This document shows, in pieces, positions 35,697 through 43,346 of a stretch of DNA of 45,837 bases. How positions within the stretch are numbered: the stretch's first letter is position 1; every line of letters begins with the position of its first letter. This DNA comes from Algibacter sp. (lineage in GTDB: Bacteria > Bacteroidota > Bacteroidia > Flavobacteriales > Flavobacteriaceae): the NCBI RefSeq assembly GCF_029245835.1, contig NZ_JAQWOO010000083.1:1-45837 (forward strand). The letters are read 5' to 3'. The position numbers were made by a program, and so were the translations under genes. The notes below the pieces were generated by a model. It was not told the DNA's origin, made no database searches, and saw nothing but the letters and a program-made list of their open reading frames with translations.

Positions 35697-35744
35697 ATTT
35701 TTTATTTTATCGTAAGATTTGACGATAACGTCGAAGGAAGTTTA

Positions 35745-35858
35745 CACTGCCTTTAGCATTTTTGCTTGTGCTGAACTTGTTTCAGTATCTTTTAAAGATA
35801 ATATTGAAGAAATAAGTTTAATACAAAGAGGTTGCAATCAGTCAAATCTTTCCTCTAT
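35745..35858 (-). promoter_or_regulatory. SAM-II riboswitch candidate in the metK leader, with enlarged loop
   Basis: On the minus strand a P1 stem AGAGG (35852-35856) and CCTCT (35827-35831) encloses GATTTGACTGATTGCAA, closely like the conserved loop of SAM-II. The conserved 3' part AAATGCTAAAGGCAGT lies at 35745-35762, and its CAGT can pair with ACTG of the loop to form the pseudoknot. The 62 bases between hold two hairpins (TATCTTT/AAAGATA and CTGAA/TTCAG) that ordinary SAM-II lacks. It lies 49 bases before the metK ATG and about 7 after the predicted transcript start. Confidence 0.75.
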
Positions 35859-35871
35859 TATTTTGTGAGCA

Positions 35872-35879
35872 CAAAAGTA
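35872..35879 (-). promoter_or_regulatory. -7 promoter box of metK
   Basis: Read on the minus strand this is TACTTTTG, an exact TAnnTTTG. The predicted transcript begins near 35865, just upstream of the riboswitch. Confidence 0.6.
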
Positions 35880-35928
35880 AAAAAATAAAAGAATATCTAG
35901 GTTGATTTTTTGTTTTTTCAGTAAATAA

Positions 35929-35959
35929 TTGGCTGTTAAAATTTATTTATTAATATTTG
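35929..35959 (+). promoter_or_regulatory. Candidate promoter of the ilv leader
   Basis: TTG at 35929-35931, 20 bases, then AATATTTG (35952-35959), one base off TAnnTTTG. It would give a transcript beginning only a few bases before the leader-peptide ATG, i.e. a nearly leaderless mRNA. Confidence 0.4.
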
Positions 35960-35969
35960 TACCACTAAG

Positions 35970-36032
35970 ATGAAAAAACAATTTTTAAATAGCATTTGTG
36001 TCATTGTAATTGTGAATATTTTACAACGTTAA
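35970..36032 (+). CDS. ilv operon leader peptide (attenuator)
   Basis: This 20-codon ORF encodes a short peptide whose second half is ICVIVIVNIL, with four Ile, three Val and one Leu among ten residues. It lies 307 bases before ilvD, and a terminator hairpin starts 30 bases after its stop codon. This is the classical arrangement for attenuation by charged tRNA-Ile and tRNA-Val. A stalled ribosome would leave GGGATGG (36033-36039) free to pair with CCTTCC of the terminator. Confidence 0.75.
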   Translation: MKKQFLNSICVIVIVNILQR

Positions 36033-36062
36033 GGGATGGTATTTTAGAAAAATAACTTTTAG

Positions 36063-36092
36063 AAGCCTTCCTGATTTTGGAAGGCTTTTTTT
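36063..36092 (+). terminator. Attenuator terminator of the ilv operon
   Basis: AAGCCTTCC (36063-36071), loop TGATTTT, GGAAGGCTT (36079-36087), then TTTTT. It lies between the leader peptide and ilvD, with no other gene to terminate. Confidence 0.85.
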
Positions 36093-36339
36093 ATGTATTT
36101 TTTTTCGTTTTTGAACATCATAAAATAAATGATTTAAAAACTTGAATATCAGTATATTGCATGATTTTTATGGGCTATGAATTTAACCTAAAAAAGTAAA
36201 GGTTATTCTATTTAGAAACTCTAATAAATTAATTTCGACAACTTGTTTAATGTAAATTGAATAATTTTTATTAAAAATCTTAAATAAGCAATAGAATAAT
36301 CAAAAAAAAAGGAAAAAAGCGAATTTTTTTGTAACAAAT
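36093..36339 (+). other. AT-rich leader between attenuator and ilvD
   Basis: These 247 bases separate the attenuator from ilvD. I see no further gene or strong hairpin. A second, internal promoter for ilvD cannot be excluded. Confidence 0.4.
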
Positions 36340-38025
36340 ATGAAAAAACTTAATAAACATAGTAGAAGGTTAACGCAAGACGAATCTCAACCAGCTTCTC
36401 AAGCCATGTTATATGCAGTTGGTTTAACTGATGAAGATATGCAAAAGGCCCAAGTAGGTATTGCTAGTACAGGGTACGACGGGAATCCATGTAATATGCA
36501 CCTAAATAGTTTGAAAGATGAAGTGAAAATTGAATGTAATATAGCTGGATTAGTTGGCTTAGGCTTCAACACTATAGGTGTAAGTGATGGTATTTCGATG
36601 GGAACATCGGGTATGAATTATTCGTTGGTTTCTCGCGATATTATTGCAGATTCTATCGAAACTGTAATGAACGCTCAAAGTTATGATGCATTAATTGCTA
36701 TTGTGGGTTGCGACAAAAACATGCCTGGATCTATAATTTCTATGTTGCGTTTAAATCGTCCATCAATAATGATGTATGGTGGTACCATTGCGTCAGGAAA
36801 ATACAAAGGAAGAAAATTAAATATTGTTTCTGCTTTTGAGGCCTTAGGTCAAAAAGTGGCTGGTGAAATTGATGAAGAAGAATATAGAGATATTATAAAA
36901 AGCGCTATCCCAGGAGCAGGAGCTTGTGGAGGTATGTATACCGCAAATACTATGGCTTCAGCTATAGAATGTATGGGTTTTGCATTGCCTTATAATTCTT
37001 CAATCCCTGCTGAAAATCCTAATAAATTATCAGAAAGTGAAAGGACAGCTAGGGCCATAAAAAATCTTTTGGAATTAGATTTAAAACCATTAGATATTAT
37101 TTCTAAAAAATCTATTGAAAATGCGATTGCATTGGTTAATGCCTTAGGAGGTTCTACAAATGCGGTTTTACACTTTTTAGCTATAGCACATGCTGCAGAT
37201 ATTGATTTTACATTAGAAGATTTTCAACGTGTTAGTGATAGAACGCCGTTAATAGCCGATTTGAAACCTAGCGGAAAATATTTAATGGAAGATGTTCATG
37301 GTGTTGGAGGTACTCCTGCAGTGATGAAATATCTATTAGATAACGGCTATTTGCATGGTGATTGTCTAACCGTTACAGGAAAAACATTAGCCGAAAATTT
37401 AGCAGATGTTGATGCGCTTACGTTTGAAGATGATAGTCAAGATGTTATTTTTCCAAAAGACAAAGCATTAAAATCTTCAGGAAACTTACAAATTCTTTAC
37501 GGTAACTTAGCCTCTGAAGGTGCTGTAGCAAAAATATCAGGAAATGAAGGGCTTTTGTTTGAAGGAAAAGCTGTCGTTTATGATGGAGAACAAGCTGCAA
37601 ACACGGGAATTTCAAATGGCGAAGTAGAAAAAGGAGACGTTGTTGTTATTCGTTATGTAGGTCCTAAAGGCGGGCCAGGGATGCCGGAAATGTTAAAACC
37701 AACCTCATTAATAATGGGTGCTGGTTTAGGAAAATCTGTAGCGTTAATTACAGATGGTCGTTTTTCTGGAGGAACACATGGGTTTGTCGTCGGGCACATC
37801 ACCCCAGAAGCTCAAGAAGGAGGAGCTATAGGTCTATTGAAAACGGGTGATAAAATTAAAATTAGTGCCGAAGATAATTCCATAAACGTATTGCTTTCTG
37901 ATGAAGAACTAGCAGAAAGAAAATCACAGTGGATTCAACCGGAATTAAAACACAAAAAAGGAATTTTATATAAATATGCAAAATCAGTAGCATCAGCTTC
38001 TAAAGGCTGCGTAACTGACGCATAA
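36340..38025 (+). CDS. ilvD: Dihydroxyacid dehydratase
   Basis: The 561-residue iron-sulphur enzyme converts dihydroxyisovalerate and dihydroxymethylvalerate to the 2-keto acids of valine and isoleucine. Cluster ligands and signatures are visible: GNPCNMHLN (first Cys), [10 protein letters not shown] (second Cys), [15 protein letters not shown] (third Cys), and GGPGMPEML with [21 protein letters not shown] near the C terminus. It is the first structural gene behind the attenuator, although the pathway order would place it third. Confidence 0.95.
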
Positions 38026-38076: not shown

Positions 38077-39810
38077 ATGAAAACACAAACAATTAACAAT
38101 AAAAAAGAAGTGGCAGAAAAAACGCAACGTATAACAGGTAGCGAAGCTATTGTAAGAAGCTTGATGGCGGAAGGCGTTGATATTCTTTATGGATATCCTG
38201 GAGGTGCTATTATGCCGGTTTATGATGAATTATACAAATTTCAAGATCGAATTCATCATGTATTAACTCGTCATGAACAAGGTGCGGCACATGCGGCCCA
38301 AGGGTATGCACGTATATCTGGTAAAGTAGGAGTTGCTATGGCGACATCTGGTCCAGGAGCAACTAACTTAATTACGGGAATCGCAGATGCTCAAATAGAT
38401 TCTACACCAATCGTATGTATTACAGGGCAGGTGTTTTCTCATTTATTAGGGAGCGATGCATTCCAAGAAACCGATATTGTTGGTATTTCTACACCAGTTA
38501 CTAAATGGAATTGTCAGGTAACAAAAGCTGAAGATATTCCAGAGGCTATTGCTAAAGCATTCTATATTGCGAAAAGTGGACGACCAGGACCTGTATTGGT
38601 TGATATTACTAAAGATGCTCAAGTTTCTGAGTTAGACTTTAAATATGAAAAATGTACGGGTATAAGAAGTTATAAGCCTATACCTAAAACAAGTCAAGAG
38701 TCTGTTAACGCTGCCGCAGAATTGATTAATAATGCTAAAAAACCCATGATTGTTTGGGGGCAAGGTGTTGTTTTAGGGAAAGCTGAAGCAGAACTTAAAG
38801 CTGTGATAGAAAAAGCTGGAATTCCTGCGGCATGGACTATTTTAGGTGCTTCGGCATTACCAACATCGCATCCTTTAAATATAGGTATGGTTGGGATGCA
38901 TGGTAATTATGCGCCTAATAAATTAACGAACGAATGTGATGTGTTAATTGCTATAGGGATGCGTTTTGATGACCGTGTTACGGGGAGTTTAGATACCTAT
39001 GCAAAACAAGCTAAAATTATTCATTTCGATATTGACCCTGCAGAGATTAATAAAAATGTTCAGGCCGATGTTGCTGTTTTAGGTAATTCTAAAGAAAGCT
39101 TAGCGATGCTATTAGATGCGTTGAATAAAAACGCACATGAAGCCTGGTTACAAGAGTTTAAAGATTTATATGCTATTGAATTTGAAAAAGTAATTAAAGG
39201 CGATCTCCATCCTACGAAAGAAGGGTTGACTATGGGTGAGGTGTTAAAGCAAATAAATGTTGAAAGTAAAGGTAACGCAGCAATTGTTTCGGACGTAGGG
39301 CAGCATCAAATGATTGCTTGTAGATATGCTGATTTCAACGTTTCAAAAAGTAATATTACTTCTGGAGGATTAGGCACTATGGGGTTTGCACTTCCAGCAG
39401 CTATAGGCGCTAAAATGGCAGCGCCAGATCGCGAAGTAGTAGCGATTATAGGAGATGGAGGTTTCCAAATGAATATTCAAGAGTTAGGTACTATTTTTCA
39501 GCAAAAAACAGCTGTTAAAATTGTGGTATTAAACAATGAGTTTTTAGGAATGGTGCGTCAGTGGCAACAATTATTTTTTGATAAGCGTTACGCGTCTACC
39601 GAAATGACAAATCCAAATTTTATAGCTATTGCCGAAGGGTATTATATAAAAGCGAAAAAAGTAACCAAACGTGAAGAATTAGCCGAAGCTGTAAAAGAAA
39701 TGATGGAATCAAAAGAATCCTATTTCTTAGAGGTTTGTGTTGAAAAAGAAGATAACGTATTTCCAATGATTCCATCGGGAGCATCAGTTTCAGACGTACG
39801 TTTAAGTTAA
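38077..39810 (+). CDS. ilvB: Acetolactate synthase, large (catalytic) subunit
   Basis: The 577-residue thiamine-diphosphate enzyme joins pyruvate with pyruvate or 2-ketobutyrate. Visible are YGYPGGAIMPVYDEL, the catalytic Glu in LTRHEQGAAHAAQGYAR, the middle domain GMHGNYAPNKLTNECDVLIAIGMRFDDRVTG (FAD region), and the ThDP motif GDGGFQMNIQELGTI near the C terminus. The length is standard. The regulatory subunit ilvN follows. Confidence 0.95.
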   Translation: MKTQTINNKKEVAEKTQRITGSEAIVRSLMAEGVDILYGYPGGAIMPVYDELYKFQDRIHHVLTRHEQGAAHAAQGYARISGKVGVAMATSGPGATNLITGIADAQIDSTPIVCITGQVFSHLLGSDAFQETDIVGISTPVTKWNCQVTKAEDIPEAIAKAFYIAKSGRPGPVLVDITKDAQVSELDFKYEKCTGIRSYKPIPKTSQESVNAAAELINNAKKPMIVWGQGVVLGKAEAELKAVIEKAGIPAAWTILGASALPTSHPLNIGMVGMHGNYAPNKLTNECDVLIAIGMRFDDRVTGSLDTYAKQAKIIHFDIDPAEINKNVQADVAVLGNSKESLAMLLDALNKNAHEAWLQEFKDLYAIEFEKVIKGDLHPTKEGLTMGEVLKQINVESKGNAAIVSDVGQHQMIACRYADFNVSKSNITSGGLGTMGFALPAAIGAKMAAPDREVVAIIGDGGFQMNIQELGTIFQQKTAVKIVVLNNEFLGMVRQWQQLFFDKRYASTEMTNPNFIAIAEGYYIKAKKVTKREELAEAVKEMMESKESYFLEVCVEKEDNVFPMIPSGASVSDVRLS

Positions 39811-39930: not shown

Positions 39931-40458
39931 ATGAAAGAAGACATACAATCATTTACAATATCAATTTATACCGAAAACAATATCGGTCTATTGAATCGTA
40001 TTTCTGCTATTTTTCAGCGAAGACACATCAATATTGAAAGTTTAACAACTTCACAATCTGAAATAGATGGTGTAAATCGCTTTGTAATTGTTGTAGACAT
40101 GACCGAAACGAATGCATCTAAAATTGTTAAACAAATTGAAAAACAAGTTGAAACAATAAGAGCTTATTATCACACTGAAGACGAAACCATATTTACGGAG
40201 TCTTGCATGTTCAAGATTAAATCTGATTTGTTGTTTAATGAGCCTCAAATTCAGAATATAATTAAAGAGAGTAACACAACAATTGTAACAGTAAACAAGG
40301 AGTTTTTTGTACTAGAAAAATCTGGGCGACGAAACGAAATTGAGTCATTAAGACGAGATTTAAACGCGTTTGGTATTATGCAATTTGTTCGCTCAGGGAG
40401 AATTGCAGTAACTAAAGATCAAATGAAAATAACGGAATTGCTAACGGCATCCAAATAA
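39931..40458 (+). CDS. ilvN: Acetolactate synthase, small (regulatory) subunit
   Basis: The 175-residue subunit has an N-terminal ACT domain (FTISIYTENNIGLLNRISAIFQRRHINIESL and NRFVIVVDMTETNASKIVKQIEK, residues about 7-77) that binds valine for feedback inhibition. A second, C-terminal domain follows (ETIFTESCMFKIKSDLL to the end). It lies 120 bases after ilvB, a longer gap than elsewhere in the operon, containing a tandem 14-mer and the remnant AGCGAAAGCG. Confidence 0.92.
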   Translation: MKEDIQSFTISIYTENNIGLLNRISAIFQRRHINIESLTTSQSEIDGVNRFVIVVDMTETNASKIVKQIEKQVETIRAYYHTEDETIFTESCMFKIKSDLLFNEPQIQNIIKESNTTIVTVNKEFFVLEKSGRRNEIESLRRDLNAFGIMQFVRSGRIAVTKDQMKITELLTASK

Positions 40459-40482: not shown

Positions 40483-41958
40483 ATGGGAAATTATTTTAAC
40501 ACATTATCGCTAAGAGATAAATTAAATCAATTATCGAAGTGTAGATTTATGGACGCTTCAGAATTTACAGATGGAGTAAACGCTTTAAAAGGAAAAAAAA
40601 TAGTAATCGTTGGGTGTGGTGCTCAAGGTTTAAACCAAGGGTTAAATATGAGAGATTCTGGTTTAGATATTTCTTATGCATTACGTGATGCTGCTATTGC
40701 TGAAAAGCGTCAATCTTTTTTAAATGCTTCAGAAAATGGATTTACAGTTGGAAATTACCAAGAGTTAATCCCTACAGCAGATTTAGTATTGAACTTAACA
40801 CCAGATAAGCAACATACAAATGCAGTAAATGCAGTTATGCCCTTAATGAAAAAAGGAGCAACATTATCTTATTCTCACGGTTTTAATATTGTTGAAGAAG
40901 GTATGCAAATTCGTGAAGATCTTACTGTAATTATGGTGGCGCCAAAGTCTCCAGGTTCCGAAGTTCGTGAAGAATATAAGCGTGGTTTTGGTGTACCAAC
41001 ATTAATTGCTGTACACGAAGAAAACGATCCTGAAGGAAAAGGTTGGGCACAAGCTAAAGCTTATGCAGTAGGAACTGGAGGAGATAAAGCAGGTGTTTTA
41101 GCATCGTCTTTTATTGCTGAGGTAAAGTCTGATTTAATGGGCGAGCAAACTATTCTTTGTGGGTTGTTACAAACGGGTTCTATCCTTTGTTTTGATAAAA
41201 TGGTTGAAGAAGGTATTGATGCAGGTTATGCTTCAAAATTAATTCAATACGGTTGGGAAACTGTAACTGAAGGTCTTAAATATGGTGGTGTAACTAACAT
41301 GATGGATCGTCTTTCTAACAAAGCAAAAATTAAAGCTTTTGAATTATCAGAAGAATTAAAAGATATTATGCGTCCGTTATTCCAAAAGCATATGGATGAT
41401 ATTATTGAAGGTCGTTTTTCTGCAGGAATGATGGCAGATTGGGCTAATGATGATCATGATTTATTAACTTGGAGAGCAGCAACTGCTGAAACTAATTTTG
41501 AAAAAACACCTGCTGGTAATGTTGAAATTTCAGAGCAAGAGTATTACGATAATGGCGTATTAATGGTAGCTATGGTAAGAGCTGGGGTTGAGTTAGCTTT
41601 TGAAGCGATGACAGATTCTGGAATTATTGATGCTTCTGCATACTACGAATCATTGCATGAAACACCACTTATTGCAAATACCATTGCAAGAAAGAAATTA
41701 TATGAGATGAATAGTGTAATATCTGATACAGCAGAGTACGGATGTTATTTATTCGATCATGCTTGTAAGCCTTTATTAGCAGATTTCATGAAAAACATCA
41801 AAACAGATGTTATTGGAAAGCCTTTTGCTAAAGATAATGGCGATGGTGTTGATAATGCTAAACTTATTGAAATTAATAAAGTATTAAGAGAGCATCCAGT
41901 TGAAAAAGTAGGTGAATTTTTAAGATCATCTATGACGGCTATGAAGCCAATTGTATAG
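40483..41958 (+). CDS. ilvC: Ketol-acid reductoisomerase, class II
   Basis: The 491-residue enzyme isomerises and reduces acetolactate or acetohydroxybutyrate with NADPH. It has the N-terminal Rossmann motif [21 protein letters not shown], the metal-binding segment [25 protein letters not shown], and a duplicated helical C-terminal domain, which makes it the long class II form also found in E. coli. It lies 24 bases after ilvN in the same operon and is followed by a terminator. Confidence 0.95.
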
Positions 41959-42080: not shown

Positions 42081-43346
42081 ATGAATCAGGAAAAAAAAAC
42101 ATATTTTCCTAGTATAGATAGCGTAAAGGCTGCTGCTAAAACTATAAAAAAAGTGTCGTTAGTTACGCCTTTAAGCCTTAGTTTAAGATATTCAAAACAG
42201 TACGATGCTAATATTTTTTTAAAACGCGAAGACTTACAGCAAGTACGTTCTTATAAAATAAGAGGTGCTTATAATAAAATTAGCTCACTAACCTCAGATG
42301 AATCTAAATCTGGAGTAGTTTGTGCCAGTGCTGGAAACCATGCACAAGGCGTTGCTCTATCATGTAAGTTATTACAAATTAAAGGCACAATTTTTATGCC
42401 TGCTCCAACACCAAACCAAAAGCTAGAACAGGTAAAAATGTTTGGAGAAAATTTTATAGAAATTAAGCTTGTTGGTGATACGTTTGATGATGCTTATCAT
42501 GCAGCTATGTTGGAATGTGAGTCTTTAGATAAAACATTTATTCATCCTTTTAATGATGAAAAAGTTATTGAAGGTCAAGCAACTATTGGTTTAGAAATTT
42601 TAGAACAATTTAAAGAACCCATTGATTATGTTTTTGTTGCTGTTGGTGGTGGTGGTTTAGCAGCAGGTTTGTCAACAGTTTTTAAAACCTTATCTCCAAA
42701 TACAAAAATTATTGGTGTTGAGCCAGAAGGTGCGCCATCTATGACAACTTCAATAAAAAACAATAAAAATACAACACTTCAATCTATTGAAAAATTTATA
42801 GACGGAGCAGCTGTAAAACGTGTAGGCGATTTGAATTTTGAAATCTGCAAGAAAAATTTAGATGCTATGATTACTGTTCCAGAAGGGAAAGTATGTCAAA
42901 CTATTTTAGACTTATACAACAGAGATGCTATTGTTGTTGAGCCTGCAGGCGCATTGAGTATTTCGGTTTTAGATTTTTATGCAAAAGAGATAAAAGGAAA
43001 AAATGTAGTTTGTGTTGTTAGTGGGAGTAATAACGACATTACAAGAACACCAGAAATTAAAGAGCGGGCGTTGTTGTATGCTAATTTAAAACATTACTTT
43101 ATTATTAAATTTCCGCAACGTGCAGGGGCTTTAAAGGATTTTGTAATTCATGTTTTAGGTAAAAATGATGATATCACATATTTCCAATATGCTAAAAAAA
43201 CAAACCGAGAAAATGGTTCTGCTCTAGTTGGTATTCAGTTGAAATCTGCTTTAGATTTAGAACCCTTAATTAGTAAAATGAAAGCACAAAATTTTTATGG
43301 TGATTACTTAAATGACAAACCAGATTTATTTCAGTTTTTGGTGTAA
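42081..43346 (+). CDS. ilvA: Threonine ammonia-lyase (threonine dehydratase)
   Basis: The 421-residue PLP enzyme makes 2-ketobutyrate, the entry to isoleucine. The PLP lysine is in QVRSYKIRGAYNKI, followed by VCASAGNHAQGVALSC and the phosphate-binding glycine loop VGGGGLAAGLST. Residues about 330-421 form a single ACT-like regulatory domain (HYFIIKFPQRAGALKDFVIHVLGKNDDITYFQYAK), shorter than the double domain of E. coli IlvA (514). It lies 122 bases past ilvC, beyond a terminator. Confidence 0.93.
   Translation: MNQEKKTYFPSIDSVKAAAKTIKKVSLVTPLSLSLRYSKQYDANIFLKREDLQQVRSYKIRGAYNKISSLTSDESKSGVVCASAGNHAQGVALSCKLLQIKGTIFMPAPTPNQKLEQVKMFGENFIEIKLVGDTFDDAYHAAMLECESLDKTFIHPFNDEKVIEGQATIGLEILEQFKEPIDYVFVAVGGGGLAAGLSTVFKTLSPNTKIIGVEPEGAPSMTTSIKNNKNTTLQSIEKFIDGAAVKRVGDLNFEICKKNLDAMITVPEGKVCQTILDLYNRDAIVVEPAGALSISVLDFYAKEIKGKNVVCVVSGSNNDITRTPEIKERALLYANLKHYFIIKFPQRAGALKDFVIHVLGKNDDITYFQYAKKTNRENGSALVGIQLKSALDLEPLISKMKAQNFYGDYLNDKPDLFQFLV

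Follow-up and report, generated by a model that had tools for sequence, protein, structure and literature searches.

The window, by which we mean the whole stretch of 45,837 nucleotides of Algibacter sp. DNA that was analysed, contains the genes ilvD, ilvB, ilvN, ilvC and ilvA, in this order and on one strand, each named by at least one NCBIfam equivalog model above its cut-off (Table 1). The upstream neighbour of this region is metK (named with NCBIfam), which runs divergently. Between metK and ilvD a short open reading frame of 20 codons is located, with the residues ICVIVIVNIL in its second half. It is followed at a distance of 28 nt by an intrinsic terminator, and then by ilvD. A sequence-only reading of this DNA had described the ORF in these terms, together with the order leader ORF, terminator, ilvD and a GGGATGG motif immediately after the stop codon; all of these are present, the ORF at 35970–36032, the motif at 36033–36039, abutting the stop codon, and ilvD with its start at 36340. 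An origin of the terminator as the 3' end of a neighbouring gene was considered and ruled out, since metK runs divergently. Given the gene content ilvD-ilvB-ilvN-ilvC-ilvA, the products of the operon, isoleucine and valine, are what the leader codons spell. On the minus strand, before metK, a candidate long-loop SAM-II riboswitch (RF01726, 35772–35861) scores 43.7 bits against a gathering score of 44 (E 1.7e-7); a better-looking 3' strand is seen by eye at about 35740–35765, and the length of the loop may thus exceed what the model permits.

Table 1. Features of the ilv leader region and operon in the window.
Feature	Position	Strand	Description or basis
TTG, weak -33-like element of predicted P1	35929..35931	+	sequence; 20 nt upstream of -7-like box
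AATATTTG, -7-like box of predicted P1	35952..35959	+	sequence and conservation
Leader peptide ORF, MKKQFLNSICVIVIVNILQR	35970..36032	+	20 codons + TAA; sequence and conservation
Regulatory codon tract I-C-V-I-V-I-V-N-I-L, codons 9–18	35994..36023	+	antiterminator fold scan
Antiterminator hairpin (5' strand 36032–36049, 3' strand 36057–36072)	36032..36072	+	16 pairs, −11.1 kcal/mol
Intrinsic terminator (attenuator) with U run	36061..36092	+	11 pairs, 5 GC; −16.0 kcal/mol
Conserved element TTGAACATCATAA, perhaps part of P2 control	36111..36123	+	aligned in 24 loci
TAATTTCG, -7-like box of possible P2	36230..36237	+	one base off consensus; aligned in 24 loci
ilvD, dihydroxy-acid dehydratase	36340..38025	+	NCBIfam TIGR00110 above cut-off
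ilvB, acetolactate synthase large subunit	38077..39810	+	TIGR00118 above cut-off
ilvN, acetolactate synthase small subunit	39931..40458	+	TIGR00119 above cut-off
ilvC, ketol-acid reductoisomerase	40483..41958	+	TIGR00465 above cut-off
ilvA, threonine ammonia-lyase	42081..43346	+	TIGR02079 above cut-off

The terminator hairpin (36061–36089) has the sequence AAGCCTTCC...GGAAGGCTT, is followed by a T run and scores 11 pairs when G-U pairs are allowed. The antiterminator takes the 5' arm of the terminator, which makes the two folds mutually exclusive (computed energies of −11.1 and −16.0 kcal/mol, respectively); its 16 pairs are interrupted by two single-base bulges. The pairing of GGGATGG with the CCTTCC of the terminator arm, as first suggested, stands as the core of this hairpin, but the whole structure is longer, extending from 36032 to 36072, and the T-T mismatch that had been assumed folds as a bulged U. 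The complete RNA adopts the terminator fold even when no ribosome is present; antitermination therefore has to depend on kinetics. For a 1:2 pause or protector hairpin, single-sequence folding gives a weak fold only.

To look at conservation, ilvD and its upstream DNA were collected from ten genomes of the genus of the window (its own included) and from the best 80 of 594 loci; L001, which lies at the place of L002, and L015, which shares its upstream region with L011, were dropped before a fixed rule was applied. The rule asks for an ATG-initiated ORF of 12 to 40 codons with at least six Ile, Val or Leu per ten residues and a terminator within 60 nt. It is passed by 32 of the 89 distinct ilvD upstream regions (genus loci plus the best 80 of 594) and failed by 57, while ten rounds of dinucleotide shuffling give 0, 1, 0, 0, 1, 0, 0, 0, 0 and 0 passes out of 89 (mean 0.2). 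Among the passing loci are Flavobacteriaceae as well as MAGs with the labels Saprospiraceae and 'Bacteroidetes'; one of the 32, L058, owes its pass almost entirely to Leu and probably does not contain such a leader. Aligning the ilvD upstream regions of relatives was the check originally proposed for this locus, and it finds the ORF, its Ile/Val codons and the terminator conserved in many (32 of 89 by the rule). Within the genus of the window and among its near relatives, L006, L012 and L020 lack the leader or carry a decayed form of it, and L003 and L004 have a weak one. L012 still shows traces of the codon tract, but neither an ATG start codon nor a terminator. In L066, inspection by eye upstream of ilvD reveals what is likely another leader rich in Ile and Val; it is followed by a terminator, but starts with a codon other than ATG and so escaped the ATG-only rule.

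Forty leaders from the same ilvD loci (genus plus best 80 of 594) were picked by eye before any pairing was computed, excluding L006 and L050, which were judged not to be leaders, and L058. In the reading frame, Ile and Val together make up 43.6% of their codons; the other two frames give 9.8% and 4.6%, and shuffled sequences 16.4%. Ile accounts for 29.3% of the leader residues, Val for 14.3% and Leu for only 5.6%, Leu being therefore at most a minor signal; residues outside the Ile/Val tract are variable across relatives. The terminator arm also varies (CCTTCC, CCTGTATC, CCATTCC, ATCCCTTT), with the post-stop strand varying alongside. When the post-stop strands of the 40 leaders are paired with their own terminator arms, the mean energy is −8.98 kcal/mol, compared to −6.80 kcal/mol with swapped arms, and the own-arm mean is reached in none of 20,000 permutations; as these tests ignore shared ancestry, the independent changes behind them are fewer than the rows, here fewer than 40. 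In the same test on mostly new loci, the own-arm mean is reached in 0 of 10,000 permutations for the Lutibacter genus (20 modules, three of them repeats) and in 60 of 10,000 for the Aquimarina genus (36 modules, two of them repeats, with arms much alike). The repeated loci are L155, L156, L157 and L187, which equal L019, L042, L040 and L018, respectively; L155, L156 and L187 are inside the swap-test sets. The antiterminator is weaker than −6.5 kcal/mol in nine of the 40 leaders, with nearly none in L088 (−1.3 kcal/mol).

Other leaders are present in the same genome. A His leader, MTFIQLHHHFHICSQAK, with a terminator precedes hisG (L136, G000:C40:44500-48500), and His leaders are found in seven of the nine hisG loci of the genus; the start motif was unmatched in the hisG loci L096 and L101, the second of which begins at a contig end. 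Rfam Bacteroid-trp is detected in all ten genomes of the genus, and the leader in the genome of the window encodes a WWW peptide, MKTILNDTWWWCFRN, followed by a terminator (L150, around G000:C2:9606-9730). At thrA- and leuA-like genes of three genus genomes (L135, L137–L139, L141, L142 and L144), no leader was seen among the ORFs next to a detected terminator.

These observations bear on two other explanations of the ilv leader. The short ORF could encode a functional small hydrophobic protein, the hairpin being merely its 3' terminator: the peptide is hydrophobic and begins with a basic stretch, and a small gene would likewise consist of an ORF and then a terminator. However, within the ilvD upstream regions, the only ones compared, the residues vary except for the Ile/Val tract, the post-stop strand matches its own terminator arm, and parallel His and Trp leaders exist in the genome, which together make a small protein very improbable. 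A terminator placed 5' of a biosynthetic operon would also fit control by a riboswitch, a T-box or another known cis-acting RNA. Against this, Rfam detects nothing in the ilv leader at gathering score, neither T-box nor riboswitch aptamer, and the ORF and the terminator are just 28 nt apart. A permissive scan of 35850–36400 returns sub-threshold matches only, the best of them, at 25.3 of 55 bits (E 0.055), to Phe_leader, which is a leader-peptide family; Bacteroid-trp (RF01692) has no match in the window, nor in the permissive scan. We therefore give hardly any credence to control by such an RNA.

Promoter P1 is predicted just upstream of the leader. Its -7-like box, AATATTTG, is one base off TANNTTTG, with the mismatch at the first base of the F. 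johnsoniae consensus, and ends 10 nt 5' of the leader ATG. All ten close loci compared have a TTG 37–43 nt 5' of the leader ATG, and AAGTTGG is present in six of these. F. johnsoniae promoters have 4–5 nt between the -7 box and the transcript start (PMC6847099), which puts the predicted 5' end at about 35964–35965 and gives a 5' UTR of 5–6 nt. The suggestion that a -7-like box makes this leader almost leaderless thus agrees with the predicted 5' UTR, and the box is conserved in relatives. ATATTTG or TANNTTTG is found near the ATG in 24 of the 40 leaders (shuffles: mean 1.5, maximum 7). A looser test, requiring five of six matches, gave 30 of 40 with a shuffle mean of 18.1 and a maximum of 27; it discriminated poorly and was replaced by the exact patterns. 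The leader set was extended to 92 with 52 leaders from the Aquimarina and Lutibacter genera (repeats L155, L156 and L157 omitted, L187 retained), and an exact ATATTTG or TAHHTTTG box lies within 45 nt of the ATG in 51 of them. The 41 boxless leaders include the 22 second modules described below, less those omitted as repeats.

Outside Flavobacterium, the box is within 12 nt of the ATG in 42 of 44 leaders (41 of 43 distinct ones, L187 being equal to L018), while in seven Flavobacterium leaders it is 18–22 nt away. As a control, 71 ATG-initiated ORFs of at least 150 amino acids, with mechanically assigned starts, were taken from the window and three genus genomes: seven have a box, one of them within 12 nt. 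In the His leader of the genus the spacing, read off the sequence, is about 16–19 nt. For comparison, 87% of the predicted transcripts of F. johnsoniae have a 5' UTR of more than 10 nt (PMC6847099) and leaderless transcripts make up 5.5% of the mapped mRNAs of F. psychrophilum (PMC9723704). Set beside these figures, the short box spacing outside Flavobacterium suggests that the ilv leader there has near-leaderless initiation as a conserved feature.

The effect of ribosome position was calculated with one fixed, assumed footprint, in which 12 nt past the first base of the A-site codon are covered. With the A site on any of codons 1–17 (codon 17 being the last Ile), the minimum-energy fold of the free nascent RNA of the window keeps 16 of 16 antiterminator pairs; 11 of 16 are kept on codons 18 and 19, eight on codon 20 and seven at the stop codon. 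The antiterminator energy goes from −11.1 to −0.8 kcal/mol as the ribosome nears the stop. Of the 40 leaders, 31 have an antiterminator energy of −6.5 kcal/mol or lower, and the scan was performed on these as well. When the A site is on the last Ile, Val or Leu codon of the tract, 27 of the 31 keep at least 60% of the antiterminator (L019b, L042b, L046 and L064 do not), and when it is at the stop all 31 keep less than 40%. In this fixed-footprint model, the idea that a stalled ribosome frees the GGGATGG strand and a ribosome at the stop codon covers it is borne out for the window and across the 31 leaders; for the geometry to work, it is enough that the ribosome at the stop codon sits on the antiterminator strand. 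That all parts of classical enterobacterial attenuation are present was slightly too strong a statement: ORF, terminator and exclusive antiterminator are there, and a 1:2 pause or protector hairpin is at most a weak candidate.

Sequence and computation thus show that the parts are present and conserved, that the pairing is locus-specific and that the geometry works, and on these grounds we consider it very likely, with a probability of roughly 0.93, that ilvDBNCA is under ribosome-mediated transcription attenuation by the Ile/Val leader. From this arrangement we infer where the transcript starts, that the ORF is translated, that the ribosome stalls and that the polymerase reads through; the process would be as follows. 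The polymerase would start at P1, about 5 nt 5' of the leader ATG, so that the ribosome would have to load at the extreme 5' end without a Shine-Dalgarno sequence. When charged Ile- and Val-tRNA are ample, the ribosome would reach the stop codon and cover the start of the antiterminator strand; with the antiterminator blocked, the 36061–36092 hairpin would terminate transcription. When Ile- or Val-tRNA is scarce, the ribosome would stall at codons 9–17 and leave the post-stop strand free to pair with the 5' arm of the terminator once this is made, forming the 16-pair antiterminator and allowing read-through into ilvD. In this way the leader probably allows the Ile/Val synthesis genes to be turned on only when these amino acids are scarce.

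Downstream of the terminator, the conserved TTGAACATCATAA element precedes what may be a second promoter, P2. TTGRACATCATAA has a single occurrence in the genome of the window, and the reversed control has none. A second leader peptide just past the terminator (MYFFSFLNIIK-like ORFs) was considered here and rejected, because the TTGAACATCATAA stretch is kept where no such frame is readable by eye. In each of the 24 aligned loci, one TANNTTNG box is located past the element. This box is an exact TANNTTTG in six of these (L006, L013, L023, L027, L035 and L049), that of L027 lying off the aligned place. The end of the box is 13–47 nt from ilvD in 12 of the 24 loci, 67 nt in L012 and 99–103 nt in the other 11, which include the window (102 nt). 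Element and box are kept in six loci where a leader with terminator was not detected (L012, L020, L023, L030, L035 and L049). A transcript start downstream of 36092 had been named as an observation that would count against attenuation; the possible P2 box at 36230–36237 hints at such a start, by which attenuation upstream of it is not refuted. P2 may let part of ilvD expression bypass the attenuator, and any division of labour between it and P1 is likewise something we infer.

A more far-reaching interpretation is that P2, associated with TTGAACATCATAA, is the main ilvD promoter, with the attenuated P1 transcript a minor or decaying layer in the genus. This fits the presence of the element and one box in all 24 aligned loci, those without a detected leader included, the 13–47 nt spacing in half of them, which is near usual flavobacterial 5' UTR lengths, and the leader remnants of L012. 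In the window, on the other hand, the box TAATTTCG departs from the consensus at one base and lies 102 nt from ilvD, a clear -33 element for P2 is not seen, and the leader is intact together with its antiterminator and terminator, something that would not be needed in a decaying layer. We regard mixed control of this kind as a serious but somewhat doubtful alternative to attenuation as the principal control.

The leader module is doubled in some relatives. Modules were counted with a looser rule (five of ten residues, terminator within 65 nt). In the Aquimarina genus (the genus of L042), ilvD was found in 22 of 23 genomes; upstream of it, 18 of the 22 loci contain two complete ORF-terminator modules in series (L156, L158–L170, L173, L174, L176 and L178) and four contain none. 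In the Lutibacter genus (the genus of L019), 24 of 27 genomes matched and 21 loci were counted, four with two modules, 12 with one and five with none. L198, L200, L202 and L203 (partial or paralogue) were skipped, while L201, in which a leader was not found, and L157 were scored outside the genus counts. Two ORF-terminator pairs are seen by eye in L040 and L031, the looser rule giving one in L157 (equal to L040), and a single pair is seen in Aquimarina L029. A strict -7 box precedes module 1 in 11 of 18 Aquimarina and 4 of 4 Lutibacter loci, and is found before module 2 in none of them (0 of 18 and 0 of 4, respectively), so both modules are apparently read from one promoter. Preference for the own terminator is found in 4 of 4 Lutibacter loci for module 1 and also for module 2, and in 15 of 18 (module 1) and 12 of 18 (module 2) Aquimarina loci. 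Both Aquimarina modules are Ile/Val-rich.

A wider proposal, for and against which we see the chances as evenly balanced, would be that flavobacterial ilv attenuation is nearly leaderless, with the AUG about 1–8 nt from the 5' end and a Shine-Dalgarno-blind ribosome coupling at once to the polymerase. The doubled module, found in the Aquimarina genus and in some members of the Lutibacter genus, would then place two same-signal attenuators in series behind one promoter, as a steeper, multiplicative switch, the genus of the window having one module and a bypass promoter. The ilv attenuator is a concrete, testable case in a phylum in which ribosomes make little use of Shine-Dalgarno pairing, and therefore bears on transcription-translation coupling there. 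With its serial attenuators, Aquimarina provides a ready-made experiment on whether a response becomes sharper when the same sensor is present twice.

The enterobacterial ilvGMEDA, ilvBN, his, trp and thr operons are controlled by leader-peptide attenuators. Like these, the ilv region combines a leader ORF in which codons for the end products abound with an antiterminator, an intrinsic terminator and a biosynthetic operon. It differs in that a Shine-Dalgarno sequence is not seen and the predicted 5' UTR is 5–6 nt, in its compact two-state antiterminator starting from the stop codon, with at most a weak candidate for a 1:2 pause hairpin, and in that Leu is not a main codon. Sinorhizobium trpL encodes a leaderless leader peptide, with the ORF at or beside the 5' end of the transcript; the ilv leader shares this placement but belongs to a different phylum and operon. 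Candidate amino-acid attenuators were reportedly listed in some Bacteroidetes/Chlorobi in a comparative genomics study by Vitreschak et al. in 2004. No description of this ilv leader was found in the literature searched, which left most subscription journals outside its scope.

In 2010, leader-peptide systems were described as shown only in Proteobacteria and Actinobacteria, apart from the authors' own Firmicutes case and the atypical ermC, in the part of that article available (PMC2965389). Short ORFs reminiscent of leader peptides are mentioned for Bacteroides thetaiotaomicron in the available text of PMC7366714. For F. psychrophilum, a member of the same bacterial family as the window, the accessible text of PMC9723704 gives strong clues of leader-peptide attenuation ahead of amino-acid biosynthesis operons, with a hisG element conserved in other genera; 'ilv' is absent from its main text. 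Leader-peptide attenuation is thus already reported in flavobacteria (PMC9723704, same portion), and the ilv leader adds to it. The Bacteroid-trp RNA (RF01692), listed in the accessible part of PMC2864571, also combines a short ORF with a terminator, but its operon and sequence differ from those of the ilv leader. The tandem arrangement, found here in the Aquimarina genus, is not described for F. psychrophilum in the portion of PMC9723704 available, and serial same-signal attenuators may be new, within a limited literature. The Salmonella mgtCBR leader RNA also contains two short ORFs with attenuators, which sense two different signals, ATP and proline (PMC3641672), whereas in Aquimarina Ile and Val codons are abundant in each of the two ilv modules; in the window there is a single module, compared to the two attenuators of mgtCBR.
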